From Desulfobacteraceae bacterium (lineage in GTDB: Bacteria; Desulfobacterota; Desulfobacteria; Desulfobacterales; Desulfosalsimonadaceae), in the NCBI GenBank assembly GCA_011390465.1, contig JAABSH010000018.1, positions 1 to 59,830 of the forward strand: a DNA stretch of 59,830 nucleotides, read 5' to 3'. Under the pieces are notes generated by a model. That model did not search any database and had not been told where the DNA came from. It was given only the letters and a program-made list of their open reading frames with translations. This document shows positions 6,689-20,621 of this stretch, piece after piece (positions within the stretch are counted from its first letter, which is position 1; each line of letters begins with the position of its first letter). The position numbers and the translations under genes were made by a program.

Positions 6689-8587
6689 TCAGTTGTTTAA
6701 AAATTCCTGAGAGATTTTGATTTCACTGTTTTCCCGGAGGTTATCCACCCAGGCGGTGTAGATGGCATTCTGTTTCTGAGACAGAATGCGGTCGCGAACA
6801 GTGGCCACTTCGGTTTCCAGGTCTTTTTCCAGCGGGGCTTTTTTTTCTTTCAGGCTGATCACATACAGCCCGGTGGCCCCTTCAATAACCTGATCCGGCA
6901 GTTGACCGGCCTCGGTCAGTTCAAAAGCTGCTGATGCCAGTTTCTGATCGTTGCCAATGCCGGGAATGGCGCCTTTCCGATTGAACGGCCCTGTGGTTTT
7001 TACCGTGATTGCGGGTGTTTCATCCGCCGCTGTCTCGATAGAACCCGCAGATCTGGCTTTTTCAAGAAACTGATCCGCTGCCTGCCGGGCCGCAATTTTC
7101 TGCTGGTGCGTTTTTGCATCCGCCATGACCTTGTCTTTAACTTCCTCAAGGGCCGGTATCTGTTCCGGTTCTTTGTCAATTGCCTGAATCAGGTAATAGG
7201 AATCGCCGATTTCCGTGATATCGCTGATTTCCATCATGGGCAGGGCAAATGTGGTTTTGGCGAAAAGTGCGGCATCCGCTATTTTTGCCGGTCCTTTCTG
7301 CTGGGTGAAAAAATCCGTGGTCATCAGGTCCAAACCGCTGTCTTTGGCGTTTTTCTCGAGTTCTTCCCCGTCGAACGTGATGTCGTAAAGGGCCAGGGCC
7401 GCATCATAGGCCAGGTTTCTGGCTTTCTGATCTTTCAGTTTGTCGGTGATTTCTGTTGCGGCCGCCTCCAGGGGCAGGGTGGCTGCCGGGTTGTGGGCTT
7501 CTTTTTTGATGATATGCCATCCAAACTGGGTTTTTACGGGGTCGCTGATTTCTCCCACCGCCAGCGCAAAAGCGGCATCGGAAAACGGCGCTACCATGTC
7601 TTTGCGCTGGAACTCGCCAAGCTGTCCGCCTTTGTCTTTGGAAGGACCTTCTGAATAGGTTTTCGCCAGTTCGGCAAAATCTTCCCCGGCCCTGGCCTTC
7701 TCCATTACCTCCACTGCTTTCTGCCGCGCTGCTTCCACGGTCTCCGCGTCCGCATCTTGCTTCACTTTAAAAAGAATGTGGCGGGCGGAGACGGTTTCCG
7801 GCTGTTGAAAGGCTTCCGGATTGTCATCATAATACTGTTTTATTTCTTCAGGGGTTACTGCTGTGGCTTCCCGGTAGGCCGCCGGATCAAATCGGATGTA
7901 GCGGGCTTTTCGCCGGGGCTGGGTTTTATAGGCTTCCTTGTTTTCATTGTAATATGCTTCAAGAATCTGGTCCGTGACATCAACATTTTCAAAATCCGCG
8001 GGTTTAAACAGCGCATACGCGATATCCACAGTGGTGTTTTCCCATTCATACCACTGGCGGATTTCATCTTCAGACACTTTTGCGCTTTTGGTGACCATGG
8101 TCCGCAACCGGTCCATGAGCATGGCTTCTTTTTGCATGGTTTCAAAGGATTCCGGGGTCAGCCGGTTCTGGCTCAGGAGAATTTTGTAGCGCTCCGGATC
8201 AAAGGCACCGTTTTTCTGAAACGCCGGAATCCGAGTGATGGATTTTGCCAGTTCCGCGTCCGGCACCTGAAGACCGATTTTTTCAGCGGTCTGGTGCAGC
8301 AGGGTGGTTTCAATCAGACCGTCCAGGGCCTGTTGACGCACGTTGAACATTTTGATCATTTCATCATTGAGCCGGTTGCCGAACTGGGCGCGAAGATTTT
8401 CCAGCATATTGTAATAGGCCCGCTGATACTGGGTAATATCAATTATATCGCCATTTACCGTGGCTACCTTTGCGCTCTGGCGGGCGTTGAAGGACCCCAC
8501 GCCCATGAAGGTAAACGCCACTACGATGATTCCCAGAAGTACTTTAATGATCCAGGAGCCGGCACTTTCTCGCATTGCATTCAGCAT
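6689..8587 (-). CDS. ppiD: PpiD-like periplasmic folding factor (SurA_N / parvulin)
   Basis: This 632-residue protein has the PpiD layout. The N-terminus MLNAMRESAGSWIIK leads into one membrane anchor (VLLGIIVVAFTFMGVG). A SurA_N-type helical region follows, then a parvulin prolyl isomerase domain at about residues 262-365 (SARHILFK, GGQLGEF, FGWHIIK), and a helical C-terminal part. PpiD faces the periplasm at the Sec translocon and helps newly exported proteins fold. The start was placed at 8587 because AAAAGGGG lies nine bases upstream and the family begins there; the frame is open 15 codons further without support. A tRNA gene lies divergently upstream. Confidence 0.93.
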   Translation of the reverse strand: MLNAMRESAGSWIIKVLLGIIVVAFTFMGVGSFNARQSAKVATVNGDIIDITQYQRAYYNMLENLRAQFGNRLNDEMIKMFNVRQQALDGLIETTLLHQTAEKIGLQVPDAELAKSITRIPAFQKNGAFDPERYKILLSQNRLTPESFETMQKEAMLMDRLRTMVTKSAKVSEDEIRQWYEWENTTVDIAYALFKPADFENVDVTDQILEAYYNENKEAYKTQPRRKARYIRFDPAAYREATAVTPEEIKQYYDDNPEAFQQPETVSARHILFKVKQDADAETVEAARQKAVEVMEKARAGEDFAELAKTYSEGPSKDKGGQLGEFQRKDMVAPFSDAAFALAVGEISDPVKTQFGWHIIKKEAHNPAATLPLEAAATEITDKLKDQKARNLAYDAALALYDITFDGEELEKNAKDSGLDLMTTDFFTQQKGPAKIADAALFAKTTFALPMMEISDITEIGDSYYLIQAIDKEPEQIPALEEVKDKVMADAKTHQQKIAARQAADQFLEKARSAGSIETAADETPAITVKTTGPFNRKGAIPGIGNDQKLASAAFELTEAGQLPDQVIEGATGLYVISLKEKKAPLEKDLETEVATVRDRILSQKQNAIYTAWVDNLRENSEIKISQEFLNN

Positions 8588-8699
8588 TGAATAATTCCCC
8601 TTTTGAAATCCAAGAGACAGTTTTTTTGTCATCAGCGGAACACGCTATATGTTCCGGTTTAAAATTTCGCCTGTTGTCACAGGCGTCTGCGATGGTATG

Positions 8700-8728
8700 T
8701 TTTTATTATTTGGCAGGGTTATTGTCAA
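8700..8728 (-). promoter_or_regulatory. Candidate sigma-70 promoter for ppiD
   Basis: On the minus strand a perfect TTGACA (8723-8728) is followed after 17 bases by TAAAAA (8700-8705), which matches the -10 consensus at four of six positions. It lies about 115 bases upstream of the ppiD start. Confidence 0.4.
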
Positions 8729-8830
8729 TAGATTATCTGGCAGAATTTCAGCGATAATGGCCGGCAGTGAAGCCTCCGGGCCGTCAGCAGGATTTTTTTA
8801 TCAGGAGCCGGTTGATGAATAAAATATTTA

Positions 8831-8859
8831 TTGACACACAGAGCGCATTTTATTAGGTT
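8831..8859 (+). promoter_or_regulatory. Candidate promoter for tRNA-Ala
   Basis: TTGACA at 8831-8836 is perfect; 17 bases later TAGGTT (8854-8859) is a weak -10. The predicted start would be a few bases before the tRNA 5' end at 8875. Confidence 0.4.
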
Positions 8860-8874
8860 GCATTTTGTTCAAAC

Positions 8875-8950
8875 GGGGCTGTAGCTCAGCTGGGAGAGCG
8901 CATGACTGGCAGTCATGAGGTCAGGGGTTCGAGCCCCCTCAGCTCCACCA
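8875..8950 (+). tRNA. tRNA-Ala (anticodon GGC)
   Basis: All arms can be folded by eye. The acceptor GGGGCTG pairs with CAGCTCC, the D arm is GCTC...GAGC, and the anticodon stem CATGA/TCATG closes the loop CTGGCAG with anticodon GGC. The T arm is GGGGTTCGAGCCCC, and the CCA end is encoded. The gene is 76 bases including CCA. Confidence 0.97.
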
Positions 8951-8967
8951 ATAAAATCAAGGGTTTA

Positions 8968-8994
8968 GGCGGTTTTTTTTAAAGCCGCCTTTTT
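8968..8994 (+). terminator. Rho-independent terminator after tRNA-Ala
   Basis: A GGCGG...CCGCC stem extended by T/A pairs (8968-8989) is followed by a T run (8990-8994), starting 18 bases after the tRNA. Confidence 0.75.
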
Positions 8995-9254
8995 CTTTGA
9001 AACAAAAGACCACCAAAAAACCACCATTTCAAACCTCAAGCAAAATATTTTCCATGTTCCGGTAGTGATTTCTGACCAGTAATCTAAAATTAAAATTGAC
9101 ACCCTGCATTGTGTCCAAATATAATGAAACAAAATCATTATCCATTTTTGGATCACGCCCGGAATAATTACCGGCGTGTTTCCCTGCCAGCGAAAAACCG
9201 GCATCCCATAATCATAATGGTATCTCGAAAATAATCATTTGCAGATGATAAAAA

Positions 9255-9285
9255 TAAAAAAACGGGTGGCGTTTCCATCAACCCG
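9255..9285 (-). terminator. Terminator downstream of higA
   Basis: On the minus strand a CGGGT...ACCCG hairpin (9285-9263) is followed by a run of T (9262-9255). It lies about 30 bases after the higA stop. Confidence 0.6.
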
Positions 9286-9313
9286 GTGTTGGCTTTAGGT
9301 TTTTATATCTGAA

Positions 9314-9622
9314 TCAGCAGGCGCTAAACCCCGCCATTGTCCGTATATCCTTCAGCTTTCTCTTGATCGTGCGCCCGGTGACTTTAAGGTCATAGTCCAT
9401 TTGCAGATTAAGCCAGTATTCCGGCGTTTGCCCGGTCGCTTTTCCGATCAGGAAAGCCATTTCAGCCGTGACAGGCCGACGGCCATGGATGATATGGGAT
9501 ATTCGCATGGGGGAGACATTCAGATTTTTTGCAAAAGCGGCTTGAGAAATGCCTTTTTCTTGCAAAATTTCTTTGATAAATTCTCCAGGATGAATAGGGG
9601 AAAGTCCGTTTATTGAATACAT
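9314..9622 (-). CDS. higA: HigA-family antitoxin (XRE helix-turn-helix)
   Basis: A 102-residue protein with the HigA opening IHPGEFIKEILQEKGIS and a Cro/C1-type helix-turn-helix (QAAFAKNLNVSPMRISHIIHG), followed by the conserved TGQTPEYWLNLQ segment. Antitoxins of this family bind the toxin and repress the operon through DNA binding. It lies 10 bases after the toxin gene; toxin first, antitoxin second is the normal higBA order. Confidence 0.92.
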   Translation of the reverse strand: MYSINGLSPIHPGEFIKEILQEKGISQAAFAKNLNVSPMRISHIIHGRRPVTAEMAFLIGKATGQTPEYWLNLQMDYDLKVTGRTIKRKLKDIRTMAGFSAC

Positions 9623-9632
9623 AATTCACCAT

Positions 9633-9914
9633 TTAATGATAATCGGTTATTTCCACACCAAACGCATTGCCGTTTTCAAAACGGAAACAGATTCGCCATT
9701 GATTATTAACGCGAATACTCCATTGACCGTTCCGGTCATCTTTCAATGCTTCAAGGCGGTTTGACGGTGGCTGTCTGAGGTCATTCAACACTGTCGCCGC
9801 ATTAATTTGAATCAAACGCATCGCCGCCCTTGAGAGAATGTCCGCCGGAAACCGTCTTGACTTGCCGGAATAAAAAAAGCGTTCCGTTTCCTTACAGGCG
9901 AATGATTGAATCAT
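9633..9914 (-). CDS. higB: HigB toxin (RelE/ParE superfamily mRNA interferase)
   Basis: This 93-residue protein matches the short HigB pattern: MIQSFACKETERFF at the N-terminus, then ALKDDRNGQWSIRVNNQWRICFRF and a C-terminal DYH. Relatives cleave mRNA on the ribosome. The ATG at 9914 is the only start that fits the family. It has no ribosome site and lies about where transcription should start, given the -10 at 9921-9926, so the message may be leaderless. It is co-transcribed with higA. Confidence 0.9.
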   Translation of the reverse strand: MIQSFACKETERFFYSGKSRRFPADILSRAAMRLIQINAATVLNDLRQPPSNRLEALKDDRNGQWSIRVNNQWRICFRFENGNAFGVEITDYH

Positions 9915-9920
9915 GGCATA

Positions 9921-9949
9921 AATATAAACAAATTGTTTATGATGGTCAA
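9921..9949 (-). promoter_or_regulatory. higBA promoter with overlapping palindromic operator
   Basis: On the minus strand TTGACC (9949-9944) and TATATT (9926-9921) are separated by 17 bases. A perfect palindrome with arms ATAAACAA/TTGTTTAT (9924-9940, one central base) covers the spacer and -10. This is a natural site for HigA autorepression; the HigA link is inferred. Confidence 0.65.
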
Positions 9950-9950
9950 T

Positions 9951-10262
9951 GAAAAAAACTGGATCATTTTTTTGTTCAAGGTATTATAGAAATCAAAACG
10001 CTTGCCTCCTATTTTATAAAGTATTACCGATAATCGCACTTTTAAAAAGAACATGGATACAATCTTATATGTTCCGTTTTCGGTCCTTCATAGAATAAAA
10101 GTGAATATCCATCAGATATCCAATTTTTCATCATCCAGCCAGGGTTGTTTTACTTGAGATCAGGTGCGTTGTGATGTAGAGTAAAAATTTAAAAGCTGGC
10201 AGGCAGGGATTATTTTGGGTTCTACGCACTGAATATAGAAATTAAACCGGAAGGAAACGCAG
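9951..10262. other. AT-rich intergenic region before sppA
   Basis: No gene, RNA or repeat could be supported in these bases. The region should contain the sppA promoter; the only clear signal is AAGGAAA just before the GTG start at 10263. Confidence 0.4.
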
Positions 10263-11255
10263 GTGAAAGAAAGACAGTTTATTTCCATGGTTTTACTCGT
10301 GATGGTTTGTGGAGTGATGAACGGATGCATGTTTCCGACGGTCAAGCTGTTTACGGATGCATCGGATCCGCTGAAGGAATTTGTTCTTGAGGGCCGTGAA
10401 GACGGCAAGGTGCTGGTTATTCCGGTGCATGGCATTATTTCCGATATCCCGAAAAAAGGCGTGCTTGCGGATCAGCCCAGCATGCTGCAGGAGATTGTTT
10501 CCCGGCTGAAACTGGCGGAGGCCGATCCCGAGGTAAAAGCGGTTCTGTTTAAAATTGACTCCCCGGGCGGCGCGGTTACGGCCAGTGATATTCTGTATAA
10601 CGAGATCAAATCCTTTAAAGCCCGCACCGGCATTAAGGTCACGGCCATGATTATGAATATCGCGGCCTCCGGCGGCTATTACATTGCCCTGCCGGCGGAT
10701 TTGATCATGGCCCATCCCACTTCAATTACCGGTTCCGTGGGGGTTATTTTCCTGCAGCCGAAATTTTATGAACTCATGGATAAAATCGGTGTCGGGATAT
10801 CTGCCAATACATCCGGTGAAAACAAGGATATGGGATCGCCCTTCAGAAAAACCAGTGACGCGGAGGAGCGGATTTTTCAGCATCTGACGGACACCCTGGG
10901 CCAGCGGTTCATGGATCTGGTGAAACAGCACCGGAAAATTGATGAAGCCGCCGCCGCTGATATCCGCACTGCCCGTATCTACCTGGCGGAAGACGCCCGG
11001 CAACAGGGACTTATTGACGGTATTGGCTATCTTGATGAGGCCATTGACCGGACCCGGGCCCTTGCCGGTTTGGACGAGGACTGCCAGGTGGTGGTATACC
11101 GGCGGGTGGAATACCCGGAAGATAATGTGTATAATATTCAGTCCCGATATGGTGGAGGCACCCATGCGTTGGTGGATCTGGGACTGCCGGATGCGGATTT
11201 TCTGAACCGGGCCGGGTTTTATTATCTCTGGCCCGCCGGGATTAACGGAGAATAG
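10263..11255 (+). CDS. sppA: SppA-like signal peptide peptidase (S49), lipoprotein
   Basis: A 330-residue serine protease of the short S49 (SppA 36K) type, which degrades cleaved signal peptides and damaged membrane proteins. The N-terminus is a signal sequence ending in a lipobox-like VMNGC near residue 22, so it is probably lipid-anchored rather than spanning the membrane. Motifs in order are DSPGGAVTASD, the nucleophile region IAASGGYYIALP (Ser near 138), GSVGVI, and the general-base Lys in SGENKDMGSPF (near 188). The start is a GTG with AAGGAAA seven bases upstream. Two paralogous genes of unknown function follow 12 bases downstream and may be co-transcribed. Confidence 0.9.
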   Translation: MKERQFISMVLLVMVCGVMNGCMFPTVKLFTDASDPLKEFVLEGREDGKVLVIPVHGIISDIPKKGVLADQPSMLQEIVSRLKLAEADPEVKAVLFKIDSPGGAVTASDILYNEIKSFKARTGIKVTAMIMNIAASGGYYIALPADLIMAHPTSITGSVGVIFLQPKFYELMDKIGVGISANTSGENKDMGSPFRKTSDAEERIFQHLTDTLGQRFMDLVKQHRKIDEAAAADIRTARIYLAEDARQQGLIDGIGYLDEAIDRTRALAGLDEDCQVVVYRRVEYPEDNVYNIQSRYGGGTHALVDLGLPDADFLNRAGFYYLWPAGINGE

Positions 11256-11267
11256 CGGAAAGTTTTG

Positions 11268-12113
11268 ATGAAGCAGGATGCTGAAGATAAGATAAGTAGG
11301 GTCAGCGGATTCTTGAAGCGCGGTGGTCTTAAGGTGGCGCGAAAAGAAAACGTACTCCGGACCCGCGTGAATACCGGCGCCCTGGTGGATGTTTTTTCAT
11401 TAAAAAACAATCCGGATCGCATTCGCGCACGGATCAAAACAAAAGAAGCTGATTCCCTTAAAAGACAGATATTTGTGGAATCCACCCAAACCGCATTCTC
11501 CAAGGTGCTCCAAGATAAGGTGCGCGTGGACGTGTTTAATCTGTCCCGGGAGGTTGACGGCGCTTATATTTATCTGGCGGATATCGAGCTTGCGCCCGGC
11601 GGGGAAGATGACGAAGCTTTTGAGCTGCCGGAAGACGCCGTCGAAATCGTTGAAACACAAGCTTCTGAACAAAATGCCGGCCCGGATCAATCGGAAATGC
11701 CACTGGAAATGTCTTTGGAAATGTCAGATGCAGCAGTATCTAACGGCCCTGAATCCGACGGGAATCTGGCGGAATTTGCCTTGGATTTTACCCCTCCGGC
11801 GGAAAATCCGGAGCCGAAGAAAAAATCCCTGGCAGAACAGGCCTTTGAACATATAGAGACGGTTGATTCAAAAAGTCTTCGCCAGTGCCTGGATATGATG
11901 GCGCTTAAACGAACCGGCGCGGTGCGCCTGGCCATTACCCGTATTTTCCGAAATTCCCTTGAAGTGGCGGAGCTGGAAAAGACTGTTCACAGGGAAGCCA
12001 AAAAAATCCTGTCCGAGGCCGACCGGGCGGAGCTAAAGGCGGTAAAATCCGTCGGCGGCAACGGGTTTCTTGATCCGGTGATTACCATGCTGTGGAATGA
12101 AGTGTTCCAGTAA
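11268..12113 (+). CDS. Unknown protein, first of two tandem paralogues
   Basis: This 281-residue soluble protein was not recognised. Three parts can be seen: an N-terminal domain of about 105 residues rich in beta-like charged segments (DVFSLKNNPDRIRARIKTKEADSLKRQ), an acidic Met/Pro-rich linker, and a helical C-terminal domain of about 100 residues. The last contains SLAEQAFEHIE, LRQCLDMMALKR, VRLAITRIFRN and a charged helix. Both end domains recur in the next gene, in the same order, so the pair arose by duplication. The ATG at 11268 is chosen over an in-frame TTG one codon earlier. The pair lies between SppA and a divergent-type Hsp70 set and converges on the latter. Confidence 0.75.
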   Translation: MKQDAEDKISRVSGFLKRGGLKVARKENVLRTRVNTGALVDVFSLKNNPDRIRARIKTKEADSLKRQIFVESTQTAFSKVLQDKVRVDVFNLSREVDGAYIYLADIELAPGGEDDEAFELPEDAVEIVETQASEQNAGPDQSEMPLEMSLEMSDAAVSNGPESDGNLAEFALDFTPPAENPEPKKKSLAEQAFEHIETVDSKSLRQCLDMMALKRTGAVRLAITRIFRNSLEVAELEKTVHREAKKILSEADRAELKAVKSVGGNGFLDPVITMLWNEVFQ

Positions 12114-12152
12114 GTTTTGCGTCAATTCTTAGATAAGGGAAGGGGATGTCCA

Positions 12153-12935
12153 TTGGGCCACCAGTTAAATGACAAACTTGCCATTATCCGGGAAAATTTT
12201 CTGGCCGGCCGGGCCACGGTGATGGAAAACGCGGGAACATTCCGGGTGAGTTTCACATCAAATTTCACACCAGATTTCATATCAGGGGAATCTGTTTATA
12301 TTTATCCCGAGACCTATGATGATACCATTACCGCGCGCTATGATACCCGGGAGGCAGATTCGGTCAAACGGCATTTGAAGATCGAAGCCCTGCGCCGCAA
12401 CCTTGCAAGGGAAATTACCTTTGCTGCCATCAGTGACTTTGAAGAGATTTCCTCGGGTCCTCCCCGGTTTACCTATACAGCTGAAGTTGTGGTGGATGAA
12501 TCTGTATTTTTTCACGAAACCCTTCACTATGCGGCAAAAAATGCCGGAACTGAGCCGGCCGGGAGCGGGGGGCCCGCCAACACCGGTGACGCGGACATTG
12601 CCGCGGCACCGGTAGCGCCGGAAACATCCCTGTCCCTGGCAGAGCAGGCAATGGCGGGGCTGGAAGATATTGACATGAAAATGCTCCGCCAGAGCCTGGA
12701 TATGATGAATCTGCGGCGTTCCAGCACTGTCCGGCTGGCGCTGACCCGAATTTTCAGAAATACCGTGGATGTGGCATCCCTGGAAGCGGTCATTGCAGAC
12801 GAAGCCGGGAAACTGCGCACCGATATGGACCGGGAAGAGCTGGGCATTGTCAGGTTGATCAATATTGAAGCATCTCTTGCGCCGGTGATTGAACTGCTGT
12901 GTCGAGCGGTGCTGGGTGACGCGGCTGCCGGCTGA
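12153..12935 (+). CDS. Unknown protein, second tandem paralogue
   Basis: A 260-residue paralogue of the preceding gene. Shared blocks include READSVKRHLKIEALRRN in the N-terminal domain (compare KEADSLKRQIFVEST) and SLAEQAMAGLEDID, LRQSLDMMNLRRSSTVRLAL and TRIFRN in the C-terminal domain; the linkers differ. The start is set at TTG 12153, because AAGGGAAGGGG ends eight bases upstream and this aligns with the first paralogue; an upstream in-frame TTG at 12117 has no ribosome site. No signal peptide or membrane segment is seen. It is convergent with the J-like/DUF1566 gene, with 15 bases between stops. Function unknown. Confidence 0.72.
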   Translation: MGHQLNDKLAIIRENFLAGRATVMENAGTFRVSFTSNFTPDFISGESVYIYPETYDDTITARYDTREADSVKRHLKIEALRRNLAREITFAAISDFEEISSGPPRFTYTAEVVVDESVFFHETLHYAAKNAGTEPAGSGGPANTGDADIAAAPVAPETSLSLAEQAMAGLEDIDMKMLRQSLDMMNLRRSSTVRLALTRIFRNTVDVASLEAVIADEAGKLRTDMDREELGIVRLINIEASLAPVIELLCRAVLGDAAAG

Positions 12936-12950
12936 CCTTTATCTTGCGGA

Positions 12951-15299
12951 CTATGGATCTCGGACAGCCCGAACGGTGCCGCATTCCAGCGCATTCTTCC
13001 GGGCAGTGGCCCAGCGGTTTCCGCTCTCATTGTCTGCGGAAAGGGTGGTCACATGGGTCTGCCATCCATCGGAATAGGCAGAATAACTGTCTGCGGTCCA
13101 GTAAGTTTTTTTGCCGCTGACCGGAAACGCCGGCGTGGTTTCCAGGATTCCGGATAATTCTTCCGGCGTGGGCAGGCGCCAGTCTGTGAAGCCGCCGGTA
13201 TGCAGGTCCGCAACCCAGGCTTTTCCTTCCGCATAGGGCAGACAGGTGCCGGTGGTTTCAGCATCTGAATCCAGAAGGGACCACATCAGCCCGGTGCGGG
13301 TGTCCAGAACCACCCCTTCCTGCTTTTCAACAAATCGTCCACGGGTGGCGGCCAGTTTTTTCCGCAGGGCACTGGTGGTATCCATGGCTTTTTGCACGGC
13401 TATTTTTTTATTCAACAGCATTATCTGCCGGCGGATGTCTTCATTAAGGGGAGACTCCGGATACGCTGCCAGAAAATCTTCATAAATTCCTAAGGCGGCC
13501 TGATAATCAGGTTCCAGCTGGCCGGCTTTGTCCACCAGGGTGACATAGATTTTTTTGTTCCGTATGTTATCCTGAATTTCCGGGATCATCTGTTTCAGCT
13601 GATCTGAATGGCTGTTGTCGTAGATGTCGATGTATGCTTGGCAAAGCTGCAGGCAGTCTTCCCATTTTTCCTGTTTCGCATAAAAAGAGATCATTTTGCT
13701 GATATAGATGAAATATTCATTGCTGATGGCATCGATCAGGGACTGGACCTCGGCCTTGTGTTTCCCCTCGGGGTGATTCTTGAGATATTGCTGGTAAAGG
13801 GCGATTTTCTGGTCCGGCTCTCCGCTCATGGACACGTCACTTAAGGTTTCAAAATCCTGTTTTTCAATCATTTCCGATACAGCGGCAAGATGTTGCCGGA
13901 TCGCTTTCTGATGGCCGGCATCACGGGCGTTTTCCAGGGATTGTTTCAGAAAGACGGATGCTTTGTCCAGATTGTTTGTCTGGATCAGTTGATCAGCGGT
14001 TTTTAAAATTTCTGAGAGTTCGGCCGCGCGTTTTTCCGATTCAATCTGGTTGATCTGATCCCGGACCGTTTTTTCGTATTTGCTGTTGCCGTGCGCCGCA
14101 AGGTATTGTCTGAGAAGGGTTATTTTTTTATCCGGCGCAGCGGTTTTGACTTTCTGAGCGACCTGCTGATAGGCTTTTTCAACGGATTTTGTGTGCCGGA
14201 GGTGGGACAGTGCAAAATAACCGGCAACCAGCGCCACAAGGAGAATGCCGCACGCCGCCGTCAAAAAAAGAACACGGCGGCTGGTTTCCGGTTTTTTTTC
14301 AATGCGGTATTTTTTTGCCTGACAGAAGTCCTCAATATAGGTGATGGCCTCGTCTTTGTCCATGCCGAATTCAACGGCCCGGTTCACCAGGGCGTCAAAA
14401 TATTCATACCGGATTTTATTGTTGATGGCGGCAATTTGAATATCCGAATCCAGGGCGCTGAGCTTTGCCCTGGCCATGCAGATATCATAGGAAAGCCGGG
14501 TTTCATTTTTTTTAAACAGGATCAGGCACTGGCCGGCCAGGGTCTGACCGGCTGTTACCACGGCATCTTTTTTGCCGATGGCGGCAAGGCTTTTATTTTT
14601 TCGCGCGGCTTTTTCCTGAACTTGTTTCAGATCCGCATTTTCGCCGACCCCGAGAAAATCATACAGGTTTTTGCTGCCGACAATTTTCAGGTTTTCAGCG
14701 ATGGCTTTTTCAAGGGATTTATCCAGGGGCCGGATGGAAAGGGCGCCGGCTTCTTTTTCGTCTTTGAGTATCGGACACCGGACCCGTTTTCGGATTTCTT
14801 GCGGTTCCATGGCATGTTTTTTGGCAATTTTTGCCAGTTCGCTTTCCAGAAGATAGCCCTTGGCCATGCGCAGACTGATAAACTGGTCGATCCGGGAGTA
14901 GCGGGCGTCTTTCTTGGCCGCGATCCGGTCGTTGATTTCCGCCTGTGACAGGCCGTGAATGTCGGCCAGCCGGACAATGTCTTCTTTGGCAATGTAGCCT
15001 TTGCCCATGAGGATGTCGATGTGGCTGTCAATTTCGGAAATTTTGCTTTCCCGGCCCTGTTCCAGAAGTTCTGCTGCAGCGTCTGCTTCCTGTTTTCGCA
15101 ATTCTTCATCCAGCATGACCTTCTGGATATCCGGAATCATGTTGATGTATTTCTGGGCCTGAAGTCCTTTGGTGGGATGATTGCGCAGTCGGCTCCACTG
15201 CACTTTTTTATTCTGGATGGCTCGTTCAATGACGCTGGAATCGTTTTCCGGCGGATCAACCGTGAGTTCAAGAATGATATAATAGTTTTCTCTGTCCAT
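12951..15299 (-). CDS. Transmembrane protein with two J-like domains and C-terminal DUF1566
   Basis: The 782-residue protein combines unusual parts. Residues 5-72 look like a J domain (YYIILELTVDPP, AIQNKKVQW, then HPT where HPD is expected, then MLDEELRKQ). Residues 211-280 look like a second one (LYDFLGVGENADLKQVQEKA to RLSYD) with no HPD. One membrane helix spans about 353-374, preceded by basic residues, so the J-like part should be cytoplasmic. The region after it is helical and TPR-like. The last 125 residues are a DUF1566/Lcl C-terminal domain (DTRTGLMWS, WRLPTPEEL, YWTADSYS), which would be periplasmic. It is encoded after the Hsp70 and GrpE genes on the same strand, suggesting an Hsp70 partner that senses the envelope. 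That role is inference. Confidence 0.75.
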   Translation of the reverse strand: MDRENYYIILELTVDPPENDSSVIERAIQNKKVQWSRLRNHPTKGLQAQKYINMIPDIQKVMLDEELRKQEADAAAELLEQGRESKISEIDSHIDILMGKGYIAKEDIVRLADIHGLSQAEINDRIAAKKDARYSRIDQFISLRMAKGYLLESELAKIAKKHAMEPQEIRKRVRCPILKDEKEAGALSIRPLDKSLEKAIAENLKIVGSKNLYDFLGVGENADLKQVQEKAARKNKSLAAIGKKDAVVTAGQTLAGQCLILFKKNETRLSYDICMARAKLSALDSDIQIAAINNKIRYEYFDALVNRAVEFGMDKDEAITYIEDFCQAKKYRIEKKPETSRRVLFLTAACGILLVALVAGYFALSHLRHTKSVEKAYQQVAQKVKTAAPDKKITLLRQYLAAHGNSKYEKTVRDQINQIESEKRAAELSEILKTADQLIQTNNLDKASVFLKQSLENARDAGHQKAIRQHLAAVSEMIEKQDFETLSDVSMSGEPDQKIALYQQYLKNHPEGKHKAEVQSLIDAISNEYFIYISKMISFYAKQEKWEDCLQLCQAYIDIYDNSHSDQLKQMIPEIQDNIRNKKIYVTLVDKAGQLEPDYQAALGIYEDFLAAYPESPLNEDIRRQIMLLNKKIAVQKAMDTTSALRKKLAATRGRFVEKQEGVVLDTRTGLMWSLLDSDAETTGTCLPYAEGKAWVADLHTGGFTDWRLPTPEELSGILETTPAFPVSGKKTYWTADSYSAYSDGWQTHVTTLSADNESGNRWATARKNALECGTVRAVRDP

Positions 15300-15479
15300 G
15301 AACCATGCTCAATTGTTTTTTGGGTGAAGGGGGGGGGTTACCATTACTCCAACTGCGGCATGATAGCCACACAGGCTTCGGGAACCTGGTAAAATTATCA
15401 GAATCAATAATGGAAATCAATGGGATGCGGAAAAAGCAGAAAAAAAGCTGGTGCAGGCCGCCGACAAGCCGCGGCCGGT

Positions 15480-17159
15480 TCAGTGCACAACCAGGTTCTG
15501 AGACCGGGTAATGGCCCGTTCCAGGTCTTCACCGGCAATGACCGAAGCCGTGTCCACCACCACCTCAATTTGCCGGGCCTGGGAGGTTTCCATGGCCATG
15601 ATATGCAGTTGGCCTTCCTCGTTTAAGGTGAAAGTGATTTCAATGGGCAGGTCCGCCGGCAGATTCGGGGGCAGGTTCAGTATGGCGGTTTTTATCTCCA
15701 CGGCATGTTCCGGCGGGACTTCCACCCGGCTGGTTTCACTTTCCATAATGCGGATTAAAACGGTCTTCTGATTTTCCACGGCAGTGTAAAAGTTCTTTTT
15801 CAGGGTAATGGGAACAGTGGTGTTCCGCAGCACAATATTAAAAACGATTTCCTCGTTTTTGGGGGTGTGAGCCACCACCCCGAAGCTTTTGCTGGTAACG
15901 TTGCGGACTTTAAGCATGGACCGCTCAATACTGGGCAGGGTATAGCCGGTAACGTCCGCCACCTCCTGGGCTGCGGCTTTGAAATCATTGTCTGAGAGGG
16001 TGTTTGTTTCCAGCATTTCGGAAATTTCATCCATATGAGCGATGGGCCGGTTGGTTTTCTGGGACAGGCGCTGAATCAGCCCGTCATTGAGGGTCAGTTT
16101 CCAGCCGTAAATGGCGGCCCCTTTGGCAACGGCTTCATCCGGGTCAAACACTTTCGGGGTAATGGAAAAATTTTCTTCGATCCGGGTTTTAATCTGGGGC
16201 ATGCGGGTGGCGCCGCCCACGAGAATGATTTCGTCAAAGGATTGATATCCCTTGTTTTTGGCCTCTCCCAGCATTTCCCGGGTAAATTCAATGGTTCGTT
16301 CCAGGAGATCTTCCGTGATTTCTTCGAATTTTTCCCGGTCAATGAGCATTTTTACCCGTTCCCCGCCATGGGTAATGGAAATGGGGGTTTTGGGACGCTG
16401 GCTCAGAATTTTTTTGGCCTTTTCCGCGGAAAGCTGAAGATCCTGCCAGGTGTCCGGATCATCCAGAATATCCTCGTCCGTGCCGGTTTCATTCTGAAAC
16501 ACCTCCACCATGTGGGCCACCACCCGGTCATCCCAGTCTTTTCCGCCCAGATTGTGATCCCCGCCGGTGCAGATGACTTCCACGGAATCCTTGCGGATGT
16601 CGATCATGGTGACATCAAAGGTGCCCCCGCCCAGGTCGTAAACCAGCACCACCCGGTCTTCGCTGGAATCCAAGGAACCGTAAGCAATGGCGGCGGCCGT
16701 GGGTTCATTGATGATGTGCCGGACGTTGAACCCTGCGATTTCCCCGGCTTTGCGGGTGGCTTCCCGTTCATTGATGCCGAAATAGGCCGGGCAGGTGATC
16801 ACCACGTCAGTGACGGGTTCGCCCAGAAACTGTTCCGCGTCCTGGGCAAGTTTTTTCAGGATATAAGCGGATATTTCCTCGGCGCGGTATTCTTCGGAGT
16901 TGTGCAGAAAAATAAAATTGGGCTCTCCCATGGACCGTTTGACAAAGCTGACCACTTCATTGGGGTACAGCTTGGAACTTTCCTTGGCCACATCCCCGAC
17001 CACGATGCTTTCATCGTCAAAAAAAACAACAGACGGGGTGACGCGCTCATTTTCCGCGTTCGGGATGATCACGGCCTTGCCGTATTCATCTACATAGGCA
17101 ATGGAAGAATAAGTGGTGCCGAGATCAATACCGAAAATGCGTTTGCTTTGTTCCGTCAT
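15480..17159 (-). CDS. Divergent, lidless Hsp70 (DnaK-like) chaperone
   Basis: This 559-residue Hsp70 has an intact ATPase domain: GIDLGTTYSSIAYV (phosphate 1), VYDLGGGTFDVTMID (phosphate 2) and ILVGGATRMPQIK (adenosine). It departs from DnaK in two ways. The interdomain linker (DVLLLD in DnaK) is missing and replaced by about 50 extra residues between GAAIYGWKL and KVRNVTSKSFG. The protein also stops soon after the beta substrate domain, at LERAITRSQNLVVH, so the helical lid of roughly 100 residues is absent. It overlaps grpE by ATGA and is followed by the J-like/DUF1566 gene, so it probably works with both. It is not the housekeeping DnaK by sequence. Confidence 0.9.
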   Translation of the reverse strand: MTEQSKRIFGIDLGTTYSSIAYVDEYGKAVIIPNAENERVTPSVVFFDDESIVVGDVAKESSKLYPNEVVSFVKRSMGEPNFIFLHNSEEYRAEEISAYILKKLAQDAEQFLGEPVTDVVITCPAYFGINEREATRKAGEIAGFNVRHIINEPTAAAIAYGSLDSSEDRVVLVYDLGGGTFDVTMIDIRKDSVEVICTGGDHNLGGKDWDDRVVAHMVEVFQNETGTDEDILDDPDTWQDLQLSAEKAKKILSQRPKTPISITHGGERVKMLIDREKFEEITEDLLERTIEFTREMLGEAKNKGYQSFDEIILVGGATRMPQIKTRIEENFSITPKVFDPDEAVAKGAAIYGWKLTLNDGLIQRLSQKTNRPIAHMDEISEMLETNTLSDNDFKAAAQEVADVTGYTLPSIERSMLKVRNVTSKSFGVVAHTPKNEEIVFNIVLRNTTVPITLKKNFYTAVENQKTVLIRIMESETSRVEVPPEHAVEIKTAILNLPPNLPADLPIEITFTLNEEGQLHIMAMETSQARQIEVVVDTASVIAGEDLERAITRSQNLVVH

Positions 17160-17947
17160 GAGTTGTTGTTATCCTCCGAGGTGGACTCAATATGGTAGGC
17201 ATAGGCAGATACCATTTCCGGCCGGACGACTTTGCCGTCCCATTCATAACCCGGCCGCAACCGTTCCGCAACGATTTTATCCTTTTCCGGATCATCGGTA
17301 TCAATTTTTTTCAAAACCCGCTGACGGGCGGGATCAAACACATCTCCCTCACAGGAAAATGGCACAACCCCTTCCCAGGAAAACAGGTCTTCCAGGTCAG
17401 ATGCAGTGTTTTCAATATATTTCAGGAGTTTTTCCGTTTTTTCATCTGTCGGTGCATCCGTATCCGCCTGGTTTTTATAATGAATTGTAAATTTGCGCAT
17501 ATCATCCACAACCTTGATGATATCCATGATAATGCGGTGGATGTATTTTTTTACCAGGCCTTCCCGAAAATCCTGAAGGTTCCGGTGCAGATCGTCAATA
17601 ATTTTATTTTTGTGCGCATCATATTTTAATTTGCTTTCAAAGGCATTTGAAAGCTCGTCAATCTGATTTTTAATGACGGTGATCATGGGCATATTCATGG
17701 GGATATCCGGGGGCATATCCATCGACATATTCACTGCGGATTCTGTTGCCGGCCCTGATTCTATAGCGCTGTCAGCGGCGGTCTCACCGTCGGGACGGTC
17801 ATCTAAATCATCGTCTTTGGTTCTGCCGGCGGCCAATGGGGTAAGGGCTTCATCAACAGGGATGCCGATTTCAAAAGCGTCATCATCAAAGTCATTTTCA
17901 TAGACGGGATCGGGATTTTCATCATAGCTGTTGTTTTTATCATCCAT
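17156..17947 (-). CDS. GrpE-like nucleotide exchange factor
   Basis: A 263-residue protein with a long acidic, Met/Pro-rich N-terminus, then a coiled-coil (VIKNQIDELSNAFESKLKYD and following heptads) and a GrpE-like C-terminal beta region (VFDPARQRVLKKIDTDDP...VVRPEMVSAY). GrpE dimers release ADP from Hsp70. The ATG at 17947 lies six bases after AGG; an upstream in-frame TTG at 17953 is less likely. It is the first gene of the Hsp70 operon, its stop overlaps the Hsp70 start (ATGA), and a good sigma-70 promoter lies upstream. The weak match to standard GrpE suits a dedicated partner for the divergent Hsp70. Confidence 0.82.
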   Translation of the reverse strand: MDDKNNSYDENPDPVYENDFDDDAFEIGIPVDEALTPLAAGRTKDDDLDDRPDGETAADSAIESGPATESAVNMSMDMPPDIPMNMPMITVIKNQIDELSNAFESKLKYDAHKNKIIDDLHRNLQDFREGLVKKYIHRIIMDIIKVVDDMRKFTIHYKNQADTDAPTDEKTEKLLKYIENTASDLEDLFSWEGVVPFSCEGDVFDPARQRVLKKIDTDDPEKDKIVAERLRPGYEWDGKVVRPEMVSAYAYHIESTSEDNNNS

Positions 17948-18019
17948 GATCAACCTGTTTTTTTGTCTTGAAATAAAGGGGGATCGTATCAGCCTTGAAA
18001 TCTTTAATTATTTCTATAT

Positions 18020-18048
18020 ATTAAATTTAAAATCCGTCTTTTTGTCAA
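18020..18048 (-). promoter_or_regulatory. Sigma-70 promoter of the grpE-Hsp70 operon
   Basis: On the minus strand TTGACA (18048-18043) is followed after exactly 17 bases by TTTAAT (18025-18020), a five-of-six -10. The predicted start near 18013 leaves a leader of about 65 bases before grpE. No heat-shock CIRCE repeat or sigma-32-type site was seen. Confidence 0.65.
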
Positions 18049-18100: not shown

Positions 18101-20026
18101 CTACCGGCTGCTTTTTCCCCGGGCCATGGCTATCGGGGGCACCGGCAGATCAAGGGTGTAGGCAACGGCCCGCAACAGTTCTGCTTCTTTGGCAGTGACC
18201 CGCTGATCAAACAACACACAAAAGGCGCAGGCATCCAGAATGGTTTTTTTAATCCCTGAAGAGGATGCGGCAAAGTTGGAAAGGGCATCTCCCACCTGCT
18301 TAAAATCGTAGTTTCCCATTCGGGGAAACTCCGGGCTGTCTTTGGGAATGTTTTCCAGTACAGGAATGCGACGGATGGCCGATAAAAAAGCGTTTTCCGC
18401 ATCTGCAAAATGACGGTGGCCGTCTATGGCAAGTCTGGAAAGCAGGATCACGGCATCATCCGTCAGCCGGTCAATGTTTTTAAATCTGGGTTTTCCGGCC
18501 CCCGGATGTAGCGCGGCCTCAACACGGCTGGCGATGATAAGCTGGAGGATGTATTCAAACAGACTGAGCCGGCCGTCGGATACCGCCAGTGCGGAAACGG
18601 CTTGTTTAAAAGTCTGCAACTGGGATACGGACATCTGCCGCAGCGCCGGCACGGACAGATCCACCAGCGGGAGCTTCAGGGCCGGATCTATTCGTTTTAC
18701 CGATTCATGCAGCCTGGCGGCATGCCGGATGAAATTTTCCGGTATTATCTGGTTTATGGCTGCCATCTGACGGTTTCGCTCGTCTGCGTTTGAATCCAGA
18801 AGCAGGGCAACCACCACGGCCGATGCCCCCATGGGGTCATTCAGTTCCCGGCGAAGGGCCGGCGGGATGTCCGCCAGCAGGTTGCGGCTGTGGGTTACCT
18901 GATCCGGATCAAGGATTCCCGTGTTCTGGACGATGGTTTCCGGCGGTACGGACGTTTGGGGAATCTCATTGGCAAATCCCATGCTGCTGTCCGGCCGGCT
19001 CGGGGTCTGGCTGGCCGGAGAACCGGGGAAAGCCGGTGTTTTGCTGAAATTGCCGTCAAAAGACGGGTCAATGCGCTTGATGCGGTTTTGAAGGGGCGGA
19101 TGGGTGGCAAAAATTGAGCCGATGGCCATGGAAAAAAACATGTGACTGGTTTCAGCGGCCTGAGGGCTTTTTAACCGGGAGCCGCCGGTGAACCCCCCGA
19201 TTTTTTTCAATGCCCCGGCAATTCCTTTCGGGTTGCGGGTAAACTGAACAGCCGAAGCATCTGCCAGATATTCCCGCTGGCGGGATACGGCACTTTGAAT
19301 AATCCGTGAAACAAAAACGCCGATATAACCGATTGCCACCAGGGCCAGTCCGGCAAGTATGATGGGCATATCGTTTTTCCGGGTGCGGTAGCCGGGCCGG
19401 ATCGCGATTTTTCCAAGGGAGGCAATAATCAAAATACCGCTGATCATGGCAATAAGCCGGATATTGAGGCGCATGTCGCCGTTTAAAATGTGGCTGAATT
19501 CATGGGCCACCACGCCCTGAAGTTCATCCCGGGTCAGCCGGCCCAGACATCCTTGTGTAACTGCCACAACCGCATCGTCCGGCGTGTATCCGGCCGCAAA
19601 GGCGTTGATGCCGGTTTCTTTTTCCAGCAGATAGGCCACCGGCACCGGGATGCCGGCGGCAATGGCGATTTCTTCCACCACATTGATGAATTTTTTTTCA
19701 TCCGGATCGGTGGTGGCGGGATTGATCCGCCGGCCCCCCAAGCTTTCCGCAATATACGGCCCGCCCCGGCGCAGGGCCATCATTTTAAATAAACTGCCGG
19801 CCATGACGATCATGAGTACCCCTGCCATCACGCCGAGAAAAACATCACTGTCAAACCAGCAGGAGGCCGGGGCACCGGTTTCTGCGCCGCCGGCAGGGGA
19901 AAAGAAAAAAAACATGACGACACTGTAGACGGCAAGAATAATGGCACCCACGGCCAGGGCAAAGAGCGCCACCAGAAAGGCGGTGTTGCGTCGGGACTGT
20001 TGCTGGTGGTCAAAAAAATTCATCAT
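18101..20026 (-). CDS. M48 (HtpX-like) membrane protease with TerB-like C-terminus
   Basis: A 641-residue protein. Two N-terminal membrane helices (residues about 16-40 and 55-80) precede an M48 protease domain with the zinc motif HEFSH at about residue 174. Two more hydrophobic segments follow (IAMISGILIIASLG, PIILAGLALVAIGYIG), then the SRQREYLADASAVQ motif that supplies the third zinc ligand. Beyond residue about 330 it has a Pro-rich linker and about 280 extra residues not present in HtpX. The last part (LFDQRVTAKEAELLRAVAYTL) resembles TerB-like helices. HtpX-type enzymes cleave misfolded membrane proteins. It follows lemA by seven bases, an association common for this subgroup. An ATG one codon later is equally possible. 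Confidence 0.87.
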   Translation of the reverse strand: MMNFFDHQQQSRRNTAFLVALFALAVGAIILAVYSVVMFFFFSPAGGAETGAPASCWFDSDVFLGVMAGVLMIVMAGSLFKMMALRRGGPYIAESLGGRRINPATTDPDEKKFINVVEEIAIAAGIPVPVAYLLEKETGINAFAAGYTPDDAVVAVTQGCLGRLTRDELQGVVAHEFSHILNGDMRLNIRLIAMISGILIIASLGKIAIRPGYRTRKNDMPIILAGLALVAIGYIGVFVSRIIQSAVSRQREYLADASAVQFTRNPKGIAGALKKIGGFTGGSRLKSPQAAETSHMFFSMAIGSIFATHPPLQNRIKRIDPSFDGNFSKTPAFPGSPASQTPSRPDSSMGFANEIPQTSVPPETIVQNTGILDPDQVTHSRNLLADIPPALRRELNDPMGASAVVVALLLDSNADERNRQMAAINQIIPENFIRHAARLHESVKRIDPALKLPLVDLSVPALRQMSVSQLQTFKQAVSALAVSDGRLSLFEYILQLIIASRVEAALHPGAGKPRFKNIDRLTDDAVILLSRLAIDGHRHFADAENAFLSAIRRIPVLENIPKDSPEFPRMGNYDFKQVGDALSNFAASSSGIKKTILDACAFCVLFDQRVTAKEAELLRAVAYTLDLPVPPIAMARGKSSR

Positions 20027-20033
20027 TATTTTG

Positions 20034-20621
20034 TCAGAAGCTCACTTTGGGCGCTTTTCTTTCTTCCGGGGCTTCTGTTGCCTCCAGCAGTTCCGCGGGC
20101 GTGAAATTAAACATGCCGGCTACAAGATTGGCGGGAAATTTTTCCCTGGCAATGTTGTAGGTCATCACTGCGTCGTTAAAGGCCTGACGGGCAAAGGCGA
20201 TCCGGTTTTCCGTGGAGGAAAGCTCCTCCTGAAGCTCAGCCATATTCTGATTGGCTTTCAAGTCCGGATAACTTTCCGACAGGGCAAAAAGTCTGCCCAA
20301 TGCCCCGGAGAGCATGCCTTCGGAAGCGGACAGGTTTTTCATGGCCCCGGGGTCTCCGGGGTTTTTGGACGCCTGATCGCTTGCGGAGACGGCTGAATTT
20401 CTGGCCTGAATAACGGCTTCTAAGGTTTCGCGTTCATGCTGCATGTATTTTTTCACCACTTCCACCAGGTTGGGAATCAGGTCGTAGCGCCGTTTGAGCT
20501 GAACATCAATCTGGGCAAAGGCGTTTTTATACTGGTTTTTCCGGGTGACCAGGCTGTTGTAAATGACGGCAAGCGCAAGGATGCAGACAATGATAATGCC
20601 TAAGATGATAAGGGCTGTCAC
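20034..20621 (-). CDS. lemA: LemA family protein
   Basis: A 195-residue protein with one N-terminal membrane helix (ALIILGIIIVCILALAVIYN) followed by the LemA helical bundle: RKNQYKNAFAQIDVQLKRRYDLIPNLVEVVKKYM, then SESYPDLKAN and ENRIAFARQAFNDAVMTYN. The family is widespread and its role is unknown, but it is often paired with HtpX-like or TPM-domain proteins. The start is a GTG with a strong AGGAGG seven bases upstream. It is the first gene of a two-gene unit with the M48 protease. Confidence 0.93.
   Translation of the reverse strand: MTALIILGIIIVCILALAVIYNSLVTRKNQYKNAFAQIDVQLKRRYDLIPNLVEVVKKYMQHERETLEAVIQARNSAVSASDQASKNPGDPGAMKNLSASEGMLSGALGRLFALSESYPDLKANQNMAELQEELSSTENRIAFARQAFNDAVMTYNIAREKFPANLVAGMFNFTPAELLEATEAPEERKAPKVSF

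Follow-up and report, generated by a model that had tools for sequence, protein, structure and literature searches.

Can a J-like protein and an Hsp70 work together when each has lost its side of the best-known contact between such proteins? The question is raised by a 59,830-nucleotide stretch of DNA from a Desulfobacteraceae bacterium (contig JAABSH010000018.1 of assembly GCA_011390465.1), referred to here as the window. On its minus strand lie, in this order, genes for a GrpE-like nucleotide exchange factor (17156..17953, likely start ATG at 17947), a divergent, lidless Hsp70 of 559 amino acids (aa; 15480..17159) and a J-like protein of 782 aa (12951..15299). Comparison of genomes of these sulfate-reducing bacteria shows that the three genes are conserved as a set in one Desulfobacterales clade, kin to the HSP70/GrpE/DnaJ theme of GAP1-N2 systems. 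The set is real and unusual. Systems of this kind have been described before, and this version is of interest chiefly because the two ends of the best-known J-Hsp70 contact have been lost together. How the aspartate of the histidine-proline-aspartate (HPD) motif triggers Hsp70 is a central question that has been probed so far by mutants such as DnaJ D35N and DnaK R167H. Here a whole clade has changed on both sides, in genomes that also hold an R167 DnaK, and the contact could be tested by single-residue swaps.

Open reading frames, Pfam matches and hydropathy agree with an initial annotation of this DNA, which had described GrpE, a divergent Hsp70 and a protein with two J-like domains, one membrane helix and a DUF1566 domain in order on one strand. 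The GrpE model (PF01025) matches residues 91-249 of the first protein (E 1e-16, 61.5 bits against a cut-off of 25.8), and the Pfam HSP70 model matches the second at 6.1e-111. The same annotation had noted that neither J-like domain has HPD. This is confirmed: HPT occupies residues 41-43 of the first J-like domain, J1 (15171..15179), and the second, J2, is also without HPD.

What has changed on the Hsp70 side? R167 of E. coli DnaK has D393 and D481 as its partners inside the protein and the HPD aspartate, D35, as its partner in DnaJ; DnaK R167H suppresses DnaJ D35N (Suh, 1998), as described in the available text of two later papers (PMC7289447, PMC5519331). An alignment with DnaK of E. coli K-12 shows that the window Hsp70 retains residues equivalent to D8, T11, K70, E171, T199 and D201. 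R167 is replaced by H148 (16716..16718), the interdomain linker L390-L391-L392-D393 by K417-V418-R419-N420 (15900..15911) and D481 by E515. A segment of 64 residues (353-416; 15912..16103) lies between the nucleotide-binding domain and the linker, where DnaK has 10. The protein stops about 20 residues past the beta part of the substrate-binding domain and has no lid; lidlessness was read from the alignment for the window protein and from length for other members. The lack of a lid makes general folding a less likely task for this Hsp70 than switching or assembly.

The loss of the arginine extends well beyond the window. After removal of identical proteins, 84 distinct Hsp70s shorter than 650 aa, whose genes lie upstream of, and on the same strand as, a J-like gene, were found to carry Q (61), H (13), S (4), A (3) or Y (1) at the R167 site, with two gapped. 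Arginine is present in none of the 82 readable proteins, a count that excludes the second, longer Hsp70 (at least 650 aa) of some loci. Q or H was found in all 72 readable members of a list of 74 distinct Hsp70s labelled GTPase-less; the list is hand-made, L140 of the other list shows no GTPase in its stretch, and L215 and L216 were put there unexamined for GTPase. H or Q also occupies the site in all nine Hsp70s that score 591-1167 bits with this family's profile. The 22 other Hsp70s compared, E. coli DnaK included, all have R at the R167 site and D at the D393 site.

The J side has changed as well. Removal of identical J N-termini reduced 106 rows to 92 distinct ones, many loci being duplicates of one another. 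The HPD site reads HPT in 77 of these, is gapped in one and reads HPD in none of the 91 readable, the alignment being unsure in the most distant rows (DFK, TPR, NPR, NPK, NDH and the gap). One contig scan used patterns around REN(F/Y)Y and RNHP(T/S)KG and its motif counts lean to HPT; no such pattern was used in the family and order searches. Within the J-like protein, conservation is highest in J1, at a mean column identity of 0.72.

It had been proposed at first that a J protein lacking HPD may stimulate ATPase weakly or act through another contact. The loss of HPD stands, and the word weak is amended by the finding that the partner Hsp70 has lost R167 too. The J-Hsp70 interface looks rewired on both sides, not merely degenerate. 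By analogy, the trio resembles a natural version of the D35N/R167H suppressor pair, possibly derived from one old event. In both, the HPD aspartate is lost along with a change of R167 to H. The window clade differs in being natural, in having T and not N in the J protein and Q oftener than H in the Hsp70, and it is known here from sequence.

The same genome also encodes conventional chaperones, which the initial annotation had suggested looking for. A GrpE-DnaK pair with an R167-type DnaK lies on contig C31, and HPD is present at six of the seven J-domain loci. The seventh belongs to another GrpE-Hsp70 set, on contig C53 (L080, about 6690-9582), where GrpE is found with a small J protein, whose HPD site reads SPE, and an Hsp70 in which R167 is retained. 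This set serves as a control, a single case: its J protein still has an acidic residue and its Hsp70 still has the arginine. A further DnaK-like gene, on contig C83 (L082 7224-9184), is split over two overlapping frames, possibly by a frameshift or an assembly error.

Are the two regions J domains at all? The Pfam scan of the window proteins gave no DnaJ family match at E<=1 in either. A model of residues 1-335, made from 45 sequences, has a mean predicted local distance difference test (pLDDT) score of 87.2 and a predicted template modelling (pTM) score of 0.66. J, DnaJ or Hsp40 titles fill 33 of the first 39 rows when this model is searched with VIA-align 2, mostly over residues 2-80 and about 205-280. 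J1 (residues 2-80; 15060..15296) matches 6rzy (Z 8.5, 2.8 A, 69 aligned) and the DnaK-bound J domain 5nro_B (Z 7.4, 2.5 A, 62 aligned), and J2 (residues 205-290; 14430..14687) matches the Ydj1 J domain 5vso (Z 7.2, 2.1 A, 66 aligned). Helical models can reach VIA Z values of 7-8 by chance, and such values are no proof of a J fold; despite these middling values, the fold is made more credible because two separate stretches give the same family. In a sequence profile search of the PDB, J proteins were 17 of the 19 matches at E<=1, all of them weak, with the best (E 0.0087) on J2. The profile also matches ordinary HPD-bearing DnaJ of other phyla at E 3e-5 to 1e-3. Sequence proof of J1 failed, as the PDB search matched J2 and not J1 alone. 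The models support a J fold for both regions, the support for J1 being structural. Two tandem helical repeats between them (residues 85-175; 14775..15047) have a self-alignment score of 76, against at most 39 in 500 shuffles.

How stable is the association of the three genes? Of 36 family genomes, 30 encode a full-length J-like homologue, another three encode N-terminal parts, and the last three, which are 71-87% complete, have none. All 18 family genomes with a completeness of 90% or more and a contamination of 5% or less have a full-length homologue (the sets A2 and A3 contain 22 and 18 of the family proteins). GrpE, Hsp70 and the J-like protein lie in order on one strand in 29 of 31 fetched family loci, and the remaining two stop at a contig end. 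The trio thus occurs together in other genomes, and the J-like protein is closely associated with this Hsp70. A gene for an Hsp70 of less than 650 aa lies within 1.1 kb upstream of the J-like gene in 88 of the 106 rows and 2.1-4.8 kb upstream in 10, with a second Hsp70 between. The other eight lack such an Hsp70 upstream: L129 and L205 (contig edge), L139 (J on the opposite strand), L133, L141, L186, L189 and L207. In three genomes (G534, G479 and G346) the J-like gene lies apart from Hsp70, yet each has a GrpE-Hsp70 pair of the same type elsewhere. An Hsp70 of this type was found in none of ten order genomes at least 97% complete and lacking the J-like protein, where the best scores were at most 285 bits, against 851-1167 bits in the seven genomes having this type. 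Across the genomes compared, the J-like protein and the Hsp70 were found to co-occur beyond linkage. Hsp70 relatives without a J-like neighbour were located at L251 6211-7962, L252 7325-9208 and L253 5990-7846, with H at the R167 site in the L251 relative and Q in the L252 relative.

The range of the J-like protein is narrow. It matches 67 of 242 genomes in the order Desulfobacterales, two of them weakly at J2, and 6 of 297 genomes in the phylum sample, all from the same order. Three of 296 genomes match in the phylum of G555, namely G555 itself and two with ordinary DnaJ. In the phylum of G560 there are eight of 398: G560 and G1127 with a J-like protein, four with ordinary DnaJ and two with weak matches that contain stops. 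In that of G554, two of 297 match, G554 included. A wide occurrence was rejected, matches being few outside the order in these phylum samples.

Where would such a protein sit in the cell? Hydropathy gives one hydrophobic helix, at residues 343-361 (14217..14273). Among 35 homologues, net charge is higher on its N-terminal side than on its C-terminal side in 33 and equal in two (means of the two sides, +4.4 and +0.66), in agreement with the topology first proposed, J-like parts inside and DUF1566 outside the cytoplasm. Prediction supports an inner-membrane protein with J1 and J2 inside and a tetratricopeptide repeat (TPR)-like region and Lcl_C outside. The full-length model (mean pLDDT 85.9, pTM 0.41) is unreliable in its domain arrangement; it places TPR-like helices at residues 366-650 (13350..14204) and a mixed domain at 656-782 (12954..13334). 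The TPR-like region matches the BamA-BamD fusion 5efr in Foldseek (E 6.9e-4). A BamD-like identity was not accepted for these helices, and the matches were read as generic TPR. The membrane helix and TPR-like region are present in all members of the Desulfobacterales clade that are not cut by a contig end. The C-terminal domain matches Lcl_C (PF07603, formerly DUF1566) with 47.8 bits against a cut-off of 34.9 (E 2e-12). The C-terminal domain of Legionella Lcl is joined to a collagen-like stalk, and the Lcl_C of the window protein is joined instead to a cytoplasmic J module. The fold, C-type lectin-like, is shared: residues 653-782 match the Legionella domain (8q4e; described in the available text of PMC11162425) with VIA Z 11.4, 2.8 A and 112 aligned, and C-type lectins come next. 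Two cysteines of Lcl_C, C686 and C773, are invariant in 30 sequences, which would fit a disulfide outside the cytoplasm. Other Lcl_C-like stretches were seen on contigs C35, C46 and C75 of the same genome and in family genomes, for example on G035:C82, with several in one large G035 frame.

To what known systems is the set related? HSP70 forms the second theme of GAP1-N2 GTPase systems, in about 14% of neighbourhoods, and its fibronectin type III (fn3) protein is typically fused to a DnaJ domain or TPR repeats, according to the available text of Kaur et al. (2020; PMC7159879). The window set likewise combines GrpE and Hsp70 with a variable protein that carries a DnaJ-type domain. At the Aminicenantes locus L132, the order is GrpE, Hsp70, an Hsp70 fused to a von Willebrand factor A (vWA) domain, a J-like protein with a double zinc ribbon and fn3, a GTPase-like protein, GAP1-N2 (2.7e-39) and another GTPase-like protein; the locus also matches DO-GTPase, with scores under the cut-off. 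GAP1-N2 is above the cut-off also in L134, L137, L139, L142 and L144 and on the contig of L131/L203, and DO-GTPase2 in L134 and L142. An N-terminal module homologous to the window J-like protein is found in L132, L134, L137 and others (the wider survey lists 36 of 60 loci). The J-linked Hsp70s of these systems share the lost arginine and one tree with the window Hsp70. In a quick tree of 80 of the 94 distinct rows of at least 430 aa, the 57 Desulfobacterales members form one clade (SH-aLRT 99). In a careful tree of 46 chosen rows, all 29 sampled clade members stay together (100/100), inside a larger group with the Hsp70s of L130, L131, L132, L134, L137, L139 and L140, and the fork joining the clade to L130-L132 has a support of 93/89. 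The direction of change depends on a long outgroup branch and is to be taken with caution.

The window set also differs from the GAP1-N2 theme. GAP1-N2 has no match in the window genome and is absent from 15 of 16 Desulfobacterales genomes checked. There is no second Hsp70 within 6 kb upstream of the J-like gene, and no fn3 match at E<=1 in the J-like protein, which has the membrane helix, TPR-like region and Lcl_C instead. The set is, moreover, syntenic in one family. One genome, G335, has both kinds of locus: an Lcl_C-type J protein (L202), and GAP1-N2 with a second Hsp70 (L203). The window set is best read as a membrane-anchored branch without GAP1 and apparently without GTPase; no DO-GTPase was found among the 10 window proteins scanned, the rest of the genome not having been searched. 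What is familiar as a module of GTPase-linked conflict systems would then be seen in a reduced, syntenic form that joins Hsp70 to an outward lectin-like domain. A different outer part on the same base is found in the SAR324 locus L130 (J-like protein at 8001-10103), where a J part, membrane helix, PEGA and pentapeptide repeats accompany GrpE-Hsp70 and no other partners are evident in 16.9 kb. ZipN/Ftn2/ARC6 proteins have an HPD-less J-like part inside, a membrane helix and an outer domain; they are not known to have a linked Hsp70. The likeness holds by general description, and the window protein differs in having Lcl_C at its outer end. No paper on this trio was found among the matches listed in searches of the open-licence literature, and HPD, DUF1566, Lcl and Desulf do not occur in the main text of PMC7159879. 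A viral origin was also considered and rejected, the whole J-like protein having no match in viral contigs.

How might the set act? A dedicated membrane-anchored Hsp70 switch is, as an explanation of the whole, moderately probable. In such a switch the J-like protein would span the inner membrane, its J domains exposed to the cytoplasm and its TPR-like and lectin-like Lcl_C parts to the outside. J1 would dock on its private Hsp70 through an altered contact, T43 facing H/Q148 in place of the D35-R167 ion pair, and this would separate the pair from the ordinary DnaK and DnaJ of the cell. A ligand or damage sensed by the outer parts could alter the state or clustering of the tails, which would recruit or release the ATP-driven Hsp70, with GrpE resetting it. 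A fuller version is offered tentatively and is possible rather than probable: an orthogonal signalling switch in which an HPD-independent J domain acts at the membrane with an Hsp70 whose D35-R167-D393 latch is neutralised on both sides, and an outer lectin-like sensor controls a lidless, ATP-driven Hsp70 that switches or assembles and does not fold clients.

The main rival holds that the J-like domains are a tether that only keeps Hsp70 at the membrane, ATP turnover being driven by substrate, GrpE or a conventional DnaJ. The uniform absence of HPD from J1, and from J2 of the window, is what this would predict, the strong conservation of J1 suits it as well, and HPD J domains are at hand elsewhere in the genome. 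The arginine that a conventional HPD requires is, however, missing from the Hsp70 too, which argues against the use of ordinary DnaJ, and we consider the tether somewhat unlikely. An ordinary extra DnaK/DnaJ folding set in the cytoplasm, merely membrane-bound as DjlA-type proteins are, would account for the presence together of Hsp70, GrpE and J folds. The window shares these three kinds of protein, and the retained ATPase residues, with E. coli DnaK-DnaJ-GrpE, but it differs in the change of HPD to HPT, of R167 to H and of LLLD to KVRN and in the lack of a lid, and this explanation is very improbable. The kinship with HSP70 loci bearing GAP1-N2 and DO-GTPase suggests instead a retained conflict system, anti-phage or self/non-self, in which the outer lectin-like domain senses invaders and Hsp70 is the assembly effector; conflict roles with Hsp70 in that part have been proposed for GAP1-N2 systems, in the available text (Kaur et al., 2020; PMC7159879). 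Syntenic retention in all 18 high-quality family genomes is rather housekeeping-like, and GAP1-N2 is missing from nearly all Desulfobacterales genomes checked. A known defence system was rejected, as PADLOC has no model for the J-like protein or GrpE at E<=0.01 and the Hsp70 has only a 0.0019 match to PDC-M61B. A conflict role is thus doubtful, with a low probability.

Several findings, besides the modest VIA scores given above, weigh against a dedicated switch with a rewired contact. Foldseek gave no match to the J model at E<=0.001; its top-ranked entry was a J domain (2ctp, E 0.8, probability 0.99). Both losses may be one ancient event, a fixed pairing and not a repeated co-change, and the number of loci is for that reason not a number of independent changes. 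A J-like part that has ceased to stimulate ATPase would also account for an ion pair missing on both sides. The change at the D393 site is not fixed, N being found in 51 and D in 23 of the 74 hand-labelled Hsp70s. The second, longer Hsp70 of some loci, nearer the J-like gene and vWA-fused in both loci scanned (L132 and L137), has R at the R167 site in four of nine cases and H in two, the remaining three having K, T and Q. At the same site T, T and F are found in three remote Hsp70-like proteins of the genome for which no J-like partner of this type is known. In two genomes, G558 (L141) and G474 (L133, 66% complete), the J-like protein occurs without an Hsp70 of the window type; in G031 (84% complete) the Hsp70 is present and no J-like protein was found; and in G479 and G534 three relatives of the Hsp70 stand without a J neighbour. 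Lcl_C is absent from four distinct loci, L120 (same contig as L191), L195, L197 and L198; with Lcl_C variable and the J module and Hsp70 constant, the outer part is partly exchangeable.

The surroundings of the trio add some minor observations. A frame search credited the Hsp70 with 1405 aa, but a gene fusion was rejected, in-frame TGA codons being seen by eye between the two genes. A promoter-like TTGACA-N17-TTTAAT, also read by eye, lies ahead of grpE (18020..18048, minus strand); it is absent from the automatic promoter scan, which requires A at position 2 of the second hexamer. An M48 peptidase and LemA (18101-20621) are encoded just upstream of the trio on the same strand, with M48 near the trio in only 2 of the 31 family loci over the stretches fetched. 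On the plus strand, converging on the J-like gene, are two tandem paralogues (11265-12113 and 12117-12935) that match no Pfam or NCBIfam family clearly. In 20 of the 31 family loci at least one of the two lies next to the J-like gene, often followed by an S49 peptidase (10263-11255 in the window).

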